From NCBI RefSeq assembly GCF_000021985.1, contig NC_011901.1, forward strand, positions 1,612,001-1,676,000: a DNA stretch of 64,000 nt, written 5' to 3'. Positions 3,241 through 60,857 of the stretch are shown here, piece after piece (positions within the stretch are counted from its first letter, which is position 1; each line of letters begins with the position of its first letter). The position numbers and the translations under genes are program-made. Source of the stretch: Thioalkalivibrio sulfidiphilus HL-EbGr7 (GTDB lineage: Bacteria > Pseudomonadota > Gammaproteobacteria > Ectothiorhodospirales > Ectothiorhodospiraceae). The notes below the pieces were generated by a model. It did no database searches, was not told where the DNA came from, and was given only the letters and a program-made list of their open reading frames with translations.

Positions 3241-3312
3241 CGTAGGTCGGGCTTCAGCCCGACAGCGATGCCTGACGAAGCCACCGCTTATCGGGCTGAA
3301 GCCCGACCTACG
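3241..3312. repeat. REP-like inverted repeat (CGTAGGTCGGGCTTCAGCCC family)
   Basis: Perfect 22-bp arms at 3241-3262 and 3291-3312 around a 28-bp centre. A second family member, with C for G in the core, is at 50445-50514. Together with the repeat at 3122-3183 it fills most of the 308-bp gap between the MBL-fold gene and acuI; I see no gene there. Confidence 0.85.
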
Positions 3313-14811: not shown

Positions 14812-15561
14812 ATGTGCGGTGATCTGAAGAACAAAGTGGCCCTGGTGACCGGCGGTACCGGCGGCATCGGCACGGCCATCTGCGCGCGCTTGAGCGACCT
14901 GGGCTGCCGGGTGGCCACCACCTACCGCAACCGGGAGAAGGCCGAGGCCTGGCAGGCACAGATGAAACAGAGCGGACACCAGGTGACCATCTACGCCTGT
15001 GACGTGGGCGACTATGAAGCCTGCGTGCAGCTGGCCGAGACCATCGAGAAGGATCTGGGGCCCGTGGACATCCTGGTGAACAATGCCGGCATCACCCGGG
15101 ACACGACCCTCAAGAAGATGACCCCGGGTCACTGGCGGGAGGTGATCTGCGCCGACCTGGACAGCGTGTTCAACATGACCCAGCCGCTGCTGCCGCGCAT
15201 GGCGGAGCGGGGCTGGGGCCGGGTGATCAACATCTCCTCCATCAATGGCCAGAAGGGCCAGTTCGGCCAGGCCAACTACAGTGCCGCCAAGGCCGGCATG
15301 CACGGCTTCACCATGGCGGCGGCCCAGGAGGTGGCCCGCAAGGGGGTCACCGTGAACACCATCTCCCCGGGCTACATCGCCACGGAGATGGTGATGGCCG
15401 TGCCGGAGGAGGTCCGGGAGAAGATCATCGCCCAGATCCCCGTGGGGCGGCTGGGACGACCCGAGGAGGTCGCCCATGTGGTAGCCTTTCTCGCTTCCGA
15501 GCATGCCGGTTTCATCACCGGCGCCAATTTCGCCGCCAACGGCGGACAGCACATGCACTAG
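14812..15561 (+). CDS. phaB: Acetoacetyl-CoA reductase PhaB
   Basis: NADPH-dependent reduction of acetoacetyl-CoA to (R)-3-hydroxybutyryl-CoA. The 249-residue SDR has TGGTGGIG (cofactor loop, near 13-20), NNAGITRD, SSINGQKGQFGQ and catalytic YSAAK. The ATG at 14812 follows the phaA stop by one base, with GTGGAGGG upstream, so phaA and phaB are coupled. An apparent longer frame from 14770 lies within phaA. A second copy is at 18194-18937. Confidence 0.95.
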   Translation: MCGDLKNKVALVTGGTGGIGTAICARLSDLGCRVATTYRNREKAEAWQAQMKQSGHQVTIYACDVGDYEACVQLAETIEKDLGPVDILVNNAGITRDTTLKKMTPGHWREVICADLDSVFNMTQPLLPRMAERGWGRVINISSINGQKGQFGQANYSAAKAGMHGFTMAAAQEVARKGVTVNTISPGYIATEMVMAVPEEVREKIIAQIPVGRLGRPEEVAHVVAFLASEHAGFITGANFAANGGQHMH

Positions 15562-15823
15562 TGTCGTGGCCGGTAAATATCTTGCCATTCAGAGCCCCGC
15601 AAAAGCGCCAAGACAAGGCGCACACCGCAGGCAATGGCAAGCCCTTGGCAAGGTGTGCAACGCCGTATCGGCGCTTTTGCGGGGCTCCCTTTGGGCGCGG
15701 CTGTGCGGGCATGTGGCGGTGTTAGGCTTGCTTGAAAGGGGAGTGGCCATTCCTGCCCAAGCGTGCCTGGCCACATGCCCGCACAGCCGCGCTGAATGGT
15801 AAGATATTTACCGGACACGACAC
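15561..15823. mobile_element. 263-bp nested-hairpin element between phaB and phaR
   Basis: Terminal arms 15561-15593 and 15791-15823 (33 bp, about two mismatches and a small offset) share GGTAAATATCTTGCCATTCA. Inside are two further inverted repeats. One has AGCCCCGCAAAAGCGCC near 15592 pairing with its complement near 15671-15687. The other is a perfect 23-bp stem starting GCGCGGCTGTGCGGGCATG near 15697, with its partner at about 15771-15793. No ORF fits it. The layout suggests a non-autonomous, MITE-like element able to fold into a multi-branched structure. The left end touches the phaB stop; the right end is 15 bp before phaR. Confidence 0.65.
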
Positions 15824-15837
15824 ATGGAGAGGACCGG

Positions 15838-16317
15838 GTGAAACCGCCGCGCATCATCAAGAAGTATCCCAATCGTCGGCTCTACGACACCGAGGAAAGC
15901 CGCTACGTGACCCTGGCGGACGTTCAGCAGCTGGTGCGCGGCGGCACGGACATCCAGGTGCTGGACAGCCAGAGTGGCGAGGATATCACCCGCAGCATCC
16001 TGATCCAGATCATCACCGACCAGGAGACCGGCAAGGATCCGCTGTTCTCCACCGAGATGCTCACCCGCTTCATCCGCTTCTACGACGACGCGGTCCACGA
16101 CGCCTTTTCCGGCTACCTGGAACAGAGCATGAAGTTCTTCGCCGATCAGCAGCAGCACTTCAGCCGCCAGATGCAGGAGGCCATGAGCGGCAAGGGCGCC
16201 TGGGACGTGGCGGAGATGACCCGCCGCAACCTGCAGTTCTGGCAGGACATGCAGGGGGAATTCCTCAAGGCTGCGGGACTGGGGGGGACACCGAAGGACA
16301 AGTCCGGAGGCAAGTGA
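15838..16317 (+). CDS. phaR: PHA synthesis repressor PhaR
   Basis: DNA-binding repressor of PHA genes that also binds nascent polymer. The 159-residue product has the hallmark PHB/PHA accumulation-regulator DNA-binding block RIIKKYPNRRLYDTEESRYV at residues 5-24. A second domain follows (about 60-105, STEMLTRFIRFYDD). The GTG at 15838 with GGAGAG ten bases upstream gives the usual family N-terminus. An in-frame ATG at 15796 lies inside the repeat element and is unlikely. PhaR probably controls phaEC and the phasin gene through the sites at 13422 and 17719-17747. Confidence 0.93.
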   Translation: MKPPRIIKKYPNRRLYDTEESRYVTLADVQQLVRGGTDIQVLDSQSGEDITRSILIQIITDQETGKDPLFSTEMLTRFIRFYDDAVHDAFSGYLEQSMKFFADQQQHFSRQMQEAMSGKGAWDVAEMTRRNLQFWQDMQGEFLKAAGLGGTPKDKSGGK

Positions 16318-16353
16318 CGCTCAGGCCAGGAGCGCAAGGGCGCAGAGGTTTGC

Positions 16354-16379
16354 GTAGGAGGCCCGACCCCGGGTCGAAC
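16354..16379. repeat. Half REP unit (GTAGGAGGCCCGACCCCGGG)
   Basis: Nearly identical to the left arm of the REP pair at 2011-2086. It lies between the convergent phaR and TPR-protein genes. Confidence 0.65.
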
Positions 16380-16440
16380 GTGCCTTCAGGTCTCAGCTCA
16401 TGCCCGTGATGCCCAGCACGGGGTTTACGGCCGTCGTCCC

Positions 16441-17589
16441 TCAACCATCCTGCCCAAGCCGCTGCAAGGCCGCGCGCGCCTCGGCGTTGTCCGGGTCGAG
16501 CGTAAGCGCCCTGCGTAGATCCGCAACCGCCCGTTCCGGCCGATCCAGCGCCAGGTGCGCCAGTCCGCGCTGTACATAGCCCAGGGTACTGCCGGGCGCC
16601 TGCGCCAGAAACCGGTCCAGCGACTCGATCCCTTCCTCGACCCTGCCCAGCCGTGTCAGGGCCATACCCCGGCCGAAATAGGCCTCATACAGGGCGGGGT
16701 CGATCTCCAGCGCCGCATCGTAGTGCGCGATGGCCTGCGGGTCGTCCCCTTTCAGGTACCAGGCATCGCCGGCCTTGACCCGCAGGTCCCCACGCAGGGG
16801 CGTGATGCGGCGCTTGTGTTCGTACTGGCTGATGAGCTGATCCAGTTCCGCCGCGCTTTCCGGGCGAATGGCCGGCCATTGGGCGGTCCCGCGCAGATGA
16901 TGCAGAGGGTCAATGTGCTCGCCGGCCTGTTCCTGGAGCATGCCGAAGCAGCGCCGGTAGGCGTCGCTCTCGACGACTGACTCATCCATCGGGAAGAACT
17001 CCGCATCCAGCCACAGGGATTCCCCCTCCAGTCTGCCCCGGCACTGTTCGTAACGCCGATTACCCGAGGCGTCGAACTGGCGGAAGGCACGCAGCTCACC
17101 GTGGTAGGCATGCAGGTTGACCAGGGTGTTCATGGGCGCATTGCGAAACACGGGCAGATAGGCGGCGTAGTAGTCCACCCGTACGCGACCCTCGTCATCG
17201 TGGAGGTAGACCTGGATGCTGTGGATGGTCTGCACCTGCGCCGTTTCCCACTGGATGCGGCTCAGCAGGCGTCCCGTGGCCGCGTCGTAGTAGTGCACTT
17301 CATGGAAGAAGTCCGGACCTCCCAGGCTGCCCTCGGGGTAGCCGCCCGCACGGGTCTCGGTCCGCACCTCCGTGTCGCGCAGGTGCTGCAGGTGCAGCTG
17401 GTAGATCCCGTCGGCAAAACGATTCCATGTGCGTACCGTGTCCGGGTTGGCGCGGATGGCTGGTGTTTCCTGGGCAGCAGCGTTGCTGATGCCGCTCAGC
17501 AAGAGGGCGGCGAGACAGGTGAGGGCGAGGGTCGTGTGGACCTTGGGGCTTCGGGGCGCGCAGGCGGGAATGGCTGAAGCAGGGGACAT
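16441..17589 (-). CDS. Secreted TPR-repeat protein of unknown function
   Basis: A 382-residue protein with a Sec-type signal peptide (hydrophobic TLALTCLAALLLSGI, cleavage likely after NAAA near 39). A novel-looking beta-rich middle region follows, rich in Tyr and His (PDFFHEVHYYDAATGRLLSR). Three TPR units lie at the C-terminus, from about 270 (KAGDAWYLKGDDPQAIAHYD; LYEAYFGRGMALTRLGRVEE; LGYVQRGLAHLALDRPERAV). It is exported, most likely periplasmic. It sits inside the PHA locus but on the opposite strand, which suggests it is an insertion rather than a PHA gene. I do not recognise the N-terminal domain. Confidence 0.75.
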   Translation of the reverse strand: MSPASAIPACAPRSPKVHTTLALTCLAALLLSGISNAAAQETPAIRANPDTVRTWNRFADGIYQLHLQHLRDTEVRTETRAGGYPEGSLGGPDFFHEVHYYDAATGRLLSRIQWETAQVQTIHSIQVYLHDDEGRVRVDYYAAYLPVFRNAPMNTLVNLHAYHGELRAFRQFDASGNRRYEQCRGRLEGESLWLDAEFFPMDESVVESDAYRRCFGMLQEQAGEHIDPLHHLRGTAQWPAIRPESAAELDQLISQYEHKRRITPLRGDLRVKAGDAWYLKGDDPQAIAHYDAALEIDPALYEAYFGRGMALTRLGRVEEGIESLDRFLAQAPGSTLGYVQRGLAHLALDRPERAVADLRRALTLDPDNAEARAALQRLGQDG

Positions 17590-18193: not shown

Positions 18194-18937
18194 ATGGTAA
18201 GGCGAGTCGCCCTGGTGACAGGCGGTACCGGTGGCCTCGGCACGGCCATCTGCCGGGAACTCACCCGGCAGGGCTGTCTGGTGGTCGCCAACTACCTGCC
18301 ATCGCTGGAGACCGAGGCCAGGGCCTGGCAACAGGCCCAGCTGGCCGAGGGCATCGAGGTGGAGATCGAGCCCGGTGACGTGTCCTCCTTCGAGGACGCC
18401 CGGGCCATGGTGGCATCGGTGGCAAAACGTATCGGCCCCGTGGACATCCTGGTCAACTGTGCCGGCATCACCCGGGACAAGACCCTGCGCAAGATGAGCG
18501 ACCAGCAGTGGCGCGAGGTCATGACCACCAACCTGGACAGCGTGTTCAACGTCACCCGCCATGTGATCGACGCCATGGTGGAACGGGGCTTCGGCCGGGT
18601 GGTGAACATCTCCTCGGTGAACGGCCAGAAGGGCCAGTTCGGCCAGTGCAACTACGCGGCGGCCAAGGCAGGGATCCACGGCTTCACCATGTCCCTGGCC
18701 CAGGAAGTGGCCACCAAGGGCGTGACGGTCAACTCCGTCTCCCCGGGTTACGTGGCCACGGCCATGACCCTTGCCATGCCTGATGAGGTGCGCAACGCGA
18801 TCGTGGCCCAGGTGCCCATGGGGCGCATGGGAACGCCGGAGGAGATCGCCCACGTGGTGGCCTTCCTGTGCGATCCCCGCGCCGCTTACATCACCGGGGC
18901 CAACATCCCCGTCAACGGCGGTTTGTACATGTCCTGA
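18194..18937 (+). CDS. phaB: Acetoacetyl-CoA reductase, second copy (PhaB-type SDR)
   Basis: A 247-residue SDR closely related to the PhaB at 14812-15561: the same TGGTGG(L/I)GTAIC, CAGITRD, NISSVNGQKGQFGQ, catalytic YAAAK and SPGYVATAM segments. It should produce (R)-3-hydroxyacyl-CoA. AAGGAGG directly precedes the ATG. It is co-directional with the phasin gene, 33 bases downstream, so it probably shares the PhaR-controlled promoter. The first PhaB is tied to phaA instead. Differences in the substrate region could mean a different chain-length or cofactor preference, which is not visible here. Confidence 0.92.
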   Translation: MVRRVALVTGGTGGLGTAICRELTRQGCLVVANYLPSLETEARAWQQAQLAEGIEVEIEPGDVSSFEDARAMVASVAKRIGPVDILVNCAGITRDKTLRKMSDQQWREVMTTNLDSVFNVTRHVIDAMVERGFGRVVNISSVNGQKGQFGQCNYAAAKAGIHGFTMSLAQEVATKGVTVNSVSPGYVATAMTLAMPDEVRNAIVAQVPMGRMGTPEEIAHVVAFLCDPRAAYITGANIPVNGGLYMS

Positions 18938-50444: not shown

Positions 50445-50514
50445 CGTAGGTCGGCCTTCAGGCTGACTGCGCTGTTGATCAGACATCGCCAGTCGGCCTG
50501 AAGGCCGACCTACG
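50445..50514. repeat. REP-like inverted repeat (CGTAGGTCGGCCTTCAGGC family)
   Basis: Perfect 19-bp arms 50445-50463 and 50496-50514. Same family as 3241-3312. The right arm supplies the stop codon (50510-50512) of the BASS-type permease on the minus strand. Confidence 0.85.
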
Positions 50515-60764: not shown

Positions 60765-60780
60765 CCCGTGACTGGGAAAC

Positions 60781-60851
60781 AGTGGCAAGTCTCAAGTGGC
60801 AAGTGGCAAGGAAGACCTTTCCTTGCCACTTGCCACTAGCCACTTGAGACT
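60781..60851. repeat. Inverted short-tandem-repeat hairpin, 7-bp unit (AAGTGGC)
   Basis: Left arm 60781-60812 has three CAAGTGG-type heptamers and right arm 60817-60851 has four. They are otherwise perfect complements, with a loop of only a few bases. The unequal unit count suggests slippage. It lies between glyA and nrdR, ending six bases before the nrdR start. Confidence 0.87.
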
Positions 60852-60857
60852 GCGCTC

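Follow-up and report, generated by a model that had tools for sequence, protein, structure and literature searches.

Several families of bacterial MITEs, including RUP, Correia and ERIC, are characterized by a TA duplication and have been linked to IS630-type elements. Conservation in miniature transposons ordinarily resides in the ends. Passages of PMC2170065 describe duplication of TA as characteristic of IS630-family elements, and a title in its reference list states that an IS630 transposon prefers the TA within CTAG. A table in PMC2817692 gives a GTAG REP for Thioalkalivibrio sp. HL-EbGR7. The window considered here, i.e., the whole stretch of 64,000 nucleotides analysed from Thioalkalivibrio sulfidiphilus HL-EbGr7, contains a 263-bp hairpin element between phaB and phaR. 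This element was interpreted, with moderate confidence, as a MITE-like non-autonomous transposon that would depend for its movement on a TA-targeting transposase (IS630/Tc1-mariner type) supplied in trans. The features of the locus, in window positions, were as follows:

14812..15561, + strand: phaB, acetoacetyl-CoA reductase (NCBIfam TIGR01829, 382.4 bits against a cut-off of 302.1)
15559..15560, no strand: target dinucleotide TA, left copy, within CTAG (from element-free relatives and the flank table)
15561..15823, no strand: mobile element, 263 bp (limits common to other aligned copies)
15561..15591, + strand: left arm of the outer stem, a terminal inverted repeat (helix 1; 31 pairs, 98.9% of cells paired)
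15590..15691, + strand: hairpin unit A (covariance model R1, 105.1 bits, E = 1.4e-24)
15687..15696, no strand: linker CCCTTTGGGC between units A and B (equivalent position in aligned copies)
15691..15794, - strand: hairpin unit B, of unit A's type, inverted (covariance model R1, 70.7 bits, E = 1e-15)
15793..15823, + strand: right arm of the outer stem, a terminal inverted repeat (inverted repeats, A2 alignment)
15824..15825, no strand: right flank of the element (AT here, TA in G004, CACTAGGAG)
15838..16317, + strand: phaR, PHA synthesis repressor, GTG start proposed (NCBIfam TIGR01848, 145.8 bits against a cut-off of 109.45)

The stop codon of phaB (TAG, 15559-15561) sits within the target CTAG (15558-15561), and the first G of the element (15561) doubles as the last base of that codon. 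An earlier note, made from the sequence alone, had named the genes on either side of the gap as phaB and phaR, and both names stand because both NCBIfam scores exceed their cut-offs. It had placed a structure at 15561-15823, which was right almost to the base; these limits match those of other copies and, if the duplicated target is TA, are the limits of the element. Its outer stem enclosing two inner hairpins was found as described in architecture, although the stem measured 31 bp here rather than 33 bp, and the perfect 23-bp inner stem was located in hairpin B (15695-15717 with 15770-15792). The element runs from an inverted end through a + strand hairpin unit, a short linker and a - strand hairpin unit to a second inverted end, and as the two units are oppositely oriented, each reads inward from its own end. 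Within a unit, the order is stem, CAAGGCGC, stem, GCAGGNAATGGC, loop, CCCTTGNCAAG, stem, GCAACGCCG, stem. A search for inverted repeats delimited the outer arms at 15561-15595 and 15789-15823 (35 nt, 91% complementary), the arms of hairpin A at 15592-15614 and 15665-15687 (23 nt, 91%), and those of hairpin B at 15688-15717 and 15770-15799 (30 nt, 90%). The multi-branched fold that the earlier note foresaw for a single strand was recovered when 15550-15840 was folded as RNA: the energy was -188.7 kcal/mol, against -117.4 +/- 4.8 for 200 dinucleotide shuffles, none of which was as low (z = -14.8). No gene was recognised inside the element; a mechanical frame of 99 aa does cross it.

The element is a dispersed repeat. 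The earlier note had proposed looking for further copies of the ends; GGTAAATATCTT did not occur a third time in the window when up to two mismatches were allowed, and the whole element was found at 14 further places in the genome. Using 15545-15840 as the query, the 15 places in the single contig of 3,464,554 bases comprised the window copy, five more that are nearly full length (88-93% identity), a truncated one (90%) and eight from a second subfamily, which aligned over parts at 70-88% identity. When aligned with their flanks these copies had common limits, and CTAG adjoined both ends in 10 of the 15; another 4-mer stood on the left side in four copies and on the right side in one, i.e., the window copy. 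The exact tip CTAGTGTCSTG occurred 32 times in this genome, against three for the reversed control pattern, while covariance model R1 identified 30 units at E <= 0.01, one of which belonged to an element that has different ends (AAACGGCAGTTGA).

Beyond this genome, relatives of the element were present in all four other genomes of the genus that were searched, in 12 of 58 related genomes and in 27 of 369 genomes drawn from across the class (the own genome being included in the last two counts). The core pattern occurred in at least 117 stretches of named genome contigs. Among 80 loci listed, several of which share one genome, 75 had gammaproteobacterial labels, one was labelled Rhodocyclales, and four only Proteobacteria or Pseudomonadota; the gammaproteobacterial labels included Thiohalobacter, Stutzerimonas, Pseudomonas, Gilvimarinus, Thioalkalivibrio and many uncultured bins. 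Carriage by viruses was rejected, since the core pattern had no exact match in viral contigs. Exact end strings gave no relevant match in literature text (there was a chance match in papers on human disease), and the available portions of the REP, MITE and IS literature held no description of this family of hairpin elements.

Some other structures were observed alongside these copies. The loop of hairpin A carried about 70 extra nucleotides (ACCCATCTG...), at an identical position, in L021 and L022 (own genome) and L057-L059 (G003), which represent both subfamilies. Palindromic elements with different ends were seen in the left flank of L015 (CAGGCTGTTGAAAA), in L320 (AAACGGCAGTTGA) and in L269 (GAGGCTGTGAAAAA); each seems to contain one unit whose core, CAAGGC / CAACRC, is similar, L320 being the one among them with a model score. 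At 60780-60852 the window also contains a palindrome of AGTGGCAAGTCTCAAG units, and the left flank of L012 includes a similar stretch that had many matches in genomes of the genus, so the palindrome is another dispersed repeat.

A position between phaB and phaR, coupled with a very stable fold, might indicate an element that regulates the PHA operon, i.e., a terminator, a processing site or the phaR promoter, and the earlier note had indeed assigned the structure to control of read-through or to the phaR promoter. Persistence at the identical site in G004, where the right end is CACTAGGAG as against CACATGGAG in the window, agrees with such a role. However, this explanation is very improbable given the 14 further genome places, and because the same gene pair in G001 and G002 is separated by an ordinary, element-free spacer of 59 nt, which begins CACTAGCACTG at the phaB stop. 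G003 had a different stretch upstream of phaR and no element in the part read. A consensus scan of 15400-16000 identified no sigma-70-like promoters and no intrinsic-terminator-like sites, and Rfam produced no match above gathering score across 15000-16500 (three microRNA matches were all far below theirs). There is no support for the element serving as a phaR promoter or in read-through, although an incidental influence on phaR expression is possible; the idea of a regulatory hairpin peculiar to the PHA locus was rejected on account of the copies elsewhere and of the element-free relatives. The locus is a caution that gene regulation is easily misread into a repeat insertion. Separately, a tip (CTAGTGTCGTGTCCCG) was seen at the phaR stop codon in G002 (L062), though this genome has no element between phaB and phaR, and the ORF list placed a second frame closely resembling phaB at 18194-18937 of the window, after a phasin-like frame.

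Element-free sites were sought with the flanks of six of the 14 other copies, in four genomes of the genus. A clean one was found for L014, where a single CTAG in G004 corresponded to CTAG-element-CTAG in the own genome. Two relatives lacking the element at the L009 site were uninterrupted and read CGAG rather than CTAG; similarly, G004 was uninterrupted at the L010 site and read GTTG. At the L011 site, G004 held a 30-nt insert made up of nothing but the two tips, joined back to back; at the L012 site it retained part of the left arm, and the L013 flanks were on two of its contigs. The clean site at L014 and the remnants at L011 and L012 demonstrate that the element inserts, and decays by internal deletion. 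Insertion polymorphism between relatives was observed both at L014 and at the phaB-phaR site. Reduced forms were also encountered: one-hairpin copies, as in L218, and single ends of about 24 nt or tip-only palindromes of about 30-36 nt (L043, L044, L045 and L046 in the own genome; L070, L073 and L091). The single end at L043 lay just before a cold-shock-like reading frame and L046 lay within a reading frame. Spurious GC-rich frames meant that insertion sites could not reliably be classed as genic or intergenic.

To characterise the target, 91 opposed unit pairs were examined and 76 were kept, after removal of nine repeats and of six pairs with fewer than 18 of 22 end places matching. Among these, 66 were GT-tip elements. 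CTAG was found on both sides of 31 of the 66, on one side of 23 and on neither side of 12; for TA alone, the corresponding values were 40, 20 and 6. Nine elements had TA on both sides with unequal outer bases (CTAG/TTAG, CTAG/ATAG or CTAG/GTAG), as a 2-bp copy of TA gives, and none of the 66 displayed a mirrored non-CTAG 4-mer. In three copies from the own genome, of which two differ little from intact copies, CAG replaced TAG on one side. Judged by sequence, the flanks appear to fit best a TA duplication with a preference for CTAG.

The flanks also bear on a second possible origin, which is that the element is a MITE of an IS5-type transposase duplicating the 4 bp of CTAG. IS5-like (DUF772) genes were present in four of the five genus genomes, several with CTAG or TTAA at both ends, and MITEPsy1, which duplicates CTAG/YTAA, is attributed, with a question mark, to IS5 in passages of PMC3189936. 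However, genuine 4-bp copies (TTAA and CTAA among them) flank IS5-like elements in this genome, whereas none of the 66 hairpin elements gave a mirrored non-CTAG 4-mer, and IS5-like groups with readable ends had GGCATCTCTGAA, GGGATGGTCTGAAG, GGAACGTCTGATTAAG, GAGACTGTCGAATAAC and CAGGCCGTTGAAAAAC, all differing from the hairpin element (L285, L287 and L294 excluded). An IS5-type origin was considered distinctly unlikely on this basis. It was observed that a broken DUF772-type frame in L294 (G002:C1:1736941-1737147) holds a CTAGTGTCGTG tip.

Conservation of the fold was evaluated with two alignments. A pattern search, which predefines some loop letters and none of the stems, returned 108 non-redundant units; six with truncated or not stem-like flanks were removed by hand, leaving 102 units in alignment A1. 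Both sides had changed in 29 of 32 base pairs, with 90.0% of cells nonetheless being paired (62.6% when shuffled), and covariation was 0.706, compared with 0.204 +/- 0.007 for shuffled alignments and at most 0.166 for slid ones. Alignment A2 contained the full element from the genus and one relative, and included 20 of 21 genus elements found (L019 was omitted). Its outer stem had changed on both sides at 17 of 31 pairs, with 98.9% of cells paired, and covariation for the whole structure was 0.329 (0.123 shuffled; at most 0.053 slid), although many changes split the two subfamilies and so the independent events are fewer than the cells. In these alignments, it is the fold that is conserved, not the stem sequence. 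The cells of A1 also included 292 G-U against 67 A-C, and 84 of the 102 units had more G-U, three had more A-C and 15 were tied, bearing in mind that the paired columns were picked by an energy model that allows G-U. The two should be roughly equal without selection on one strand; hence, one defined strand of each unit, that carrying the motif, has probably been selected to fold.

The ends, by contrast, varied widely across species (GTGTCCTG, GTGTAGTG, GTACTCC, GTGGGCC, CTAAGACAATCG and others), those of Pseudomonadaceae copies being CTAGGGTCTGTTGACGTTTCG. A first measure of end agreement gave 22.9 of 44 within elements and 16.0 between them, a result weakened by too small an offset range; furthermore, agreement within elements was partly selected because pairs needed at least 18 of 22 matches to be kept. 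A structured core is common to elements with unrelated ends in many gammaproteobacterial genera. A mobile element with changing ends but a constant folded core is unusual, and the core offers a handle for finding the factor that reads it; it may also account for other unexplained intergenic hairpins. Conceivably, the hairpin unit of about 100 nt could itself be what an as yet undescribed mobilisation system recognises, acting as strand-specific folded ssDNA or RNA, and this is put forward tentatively. Such a system would account for the conservation of the inner loops across the Gammaproteobacteria, for the free replacement of terminal repeats, which need only pair, and for the failure to find a transposon with matching ends.

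A related proposal is that the element is REPIN-like and moves as ssDNA through an HUH enzyme (Y1, RAYT-like), in which case the inverted units would be recognised in folded form, cleavage would take place at the end tetranucleotide and the outer arms would need only to pair. Consistent with this are the two inverted structured units, each reading inward from its own end, the conserved unpaired letters beside covarying stems, the predominance of G-U over A-C, the persistence of pairing where the end sequence varies, and the presence of Y1_Tnp genes in all five genus genomes. G003 and the genome behind L219 had the same eight Y1_Tnp places, by which Thioalkalivibrio denitrificans ALJD belongs to this genus. 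REPs too retain their palindromes through sequence change, according to passages of PMC2817692. Such an origin is nevertheless unlikely. No unit or tip was found within the 20 Y1_Tnp loci examined in the genus, which rules out RAYT linkage there, and two of 16 element-bearing genomes had no Y1_Tnp match. The flanks appear to fit a TA duplication, and the one-sided constancy of CTAG that is expected if one CTAG belongs to the element was not in excess among the GT-tip elements. REPs have the end tetranucleotide GTAG (or GTGG), whereas the element ends in CTAG or variants. Finally, the REP already known in this genus has another sequence; the window contains two inverted pairs of this GTAG REP, at 3242-3311 and 50446-50513 (0-3 mismatches, 0 expected by chance), and they constitute a separate repeat family.

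A search for an autonomous parent identified no exact-tip pair 0.6-6 kb apart in the own genome, and no suitable end pair for the ends of one Thiohalobacter element. Two candidates were rejected: L218, where two opposed units 1.3 kb apart were two separate one-hairpin copies, and a match on an Azotobacter plasmid, a deleted copy in which only one end matched. For the IS630/Tc1-mariner interpretation, these results mean that the own-genome tips and the Thiohalobacter ends led to no autonomous element with matching ends, though the other attributes of a MITE are present, i.e., a length of 263 bp, 15 genome places, 31-bp outer arms, no recognised gene and insertion polymorphism. Counted against it are the lack of a transposase with matching ends among the tip pairs examined, the restriction of TA on both sides to 40 of 66 elements, the CAG-sided copies, and the CGAG and GTTG sites. 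The variety of terminal sequences between species, being atypical of one transposase, also argues against it.

Under the preferred interpretation of a TA-targeting MITE, the element would have inserted into the TA of the CTAG holding the phaB stop, in a common ancestor of the own genome and G004. The phaB stop was retained because the element begins with G and ends with C, such that insertion into CTAG restores TAG. A cut-and-paste transposase of the IS630/Tc1-mariner type would have worked in trans on the inverted ends of about 31 bp, while the hairpin units would have been retained because one defined strand must fold, either as ssDNA during mobilisation or as RNA. Later internal deletion of copies would then have given rise to one-hairpin forms, tip-only palindromes or single ends.

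Comparison with known systems reveals partial likenesses. The terminal inverted repeats of TIRYT tyrosine transposases, as presented in passages of PMC3733652, are likewise long and partly self-complementary and belong to moderately abundant families; however, they flank tyrosine transposase genes, whereas the hairpin unit and tip were absent from the 20 Y1_Tnp loci of the genus. MITEPsy1 of Pseudomonas syringae, on the account given in parts of PMC3189936, is also a CTAG-targeting miniature element without a gene, but it is 100 nt long, has ends GGAAGGTCTGAAAAAGCC and makes a 4-bp duplication. With REP, BIME and REPIN sequences the element shares a doublet of inverted structured units and a conserved end motif, and REP palindromes, as reported in parts of PMC2817692, are preserved by compensatory change as they are here; it differs in being much larger (263 bp), in having CTAG rather than GTAG, in its apparent TA duplication and in lacking a linked RAYT in 20 loci. 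Like the TA MITEs linked to IS630, the element is short, non-coding and dispersed, its copy number ranging mostly from a few to some tens, with inverted ends and, in 40 of the 66 GT-tip elements, TA at both ends. It differs from them in containing two inverted structured units of about 100 nt with conserved loops, and in having a core that is constant across genera where the ends are not.
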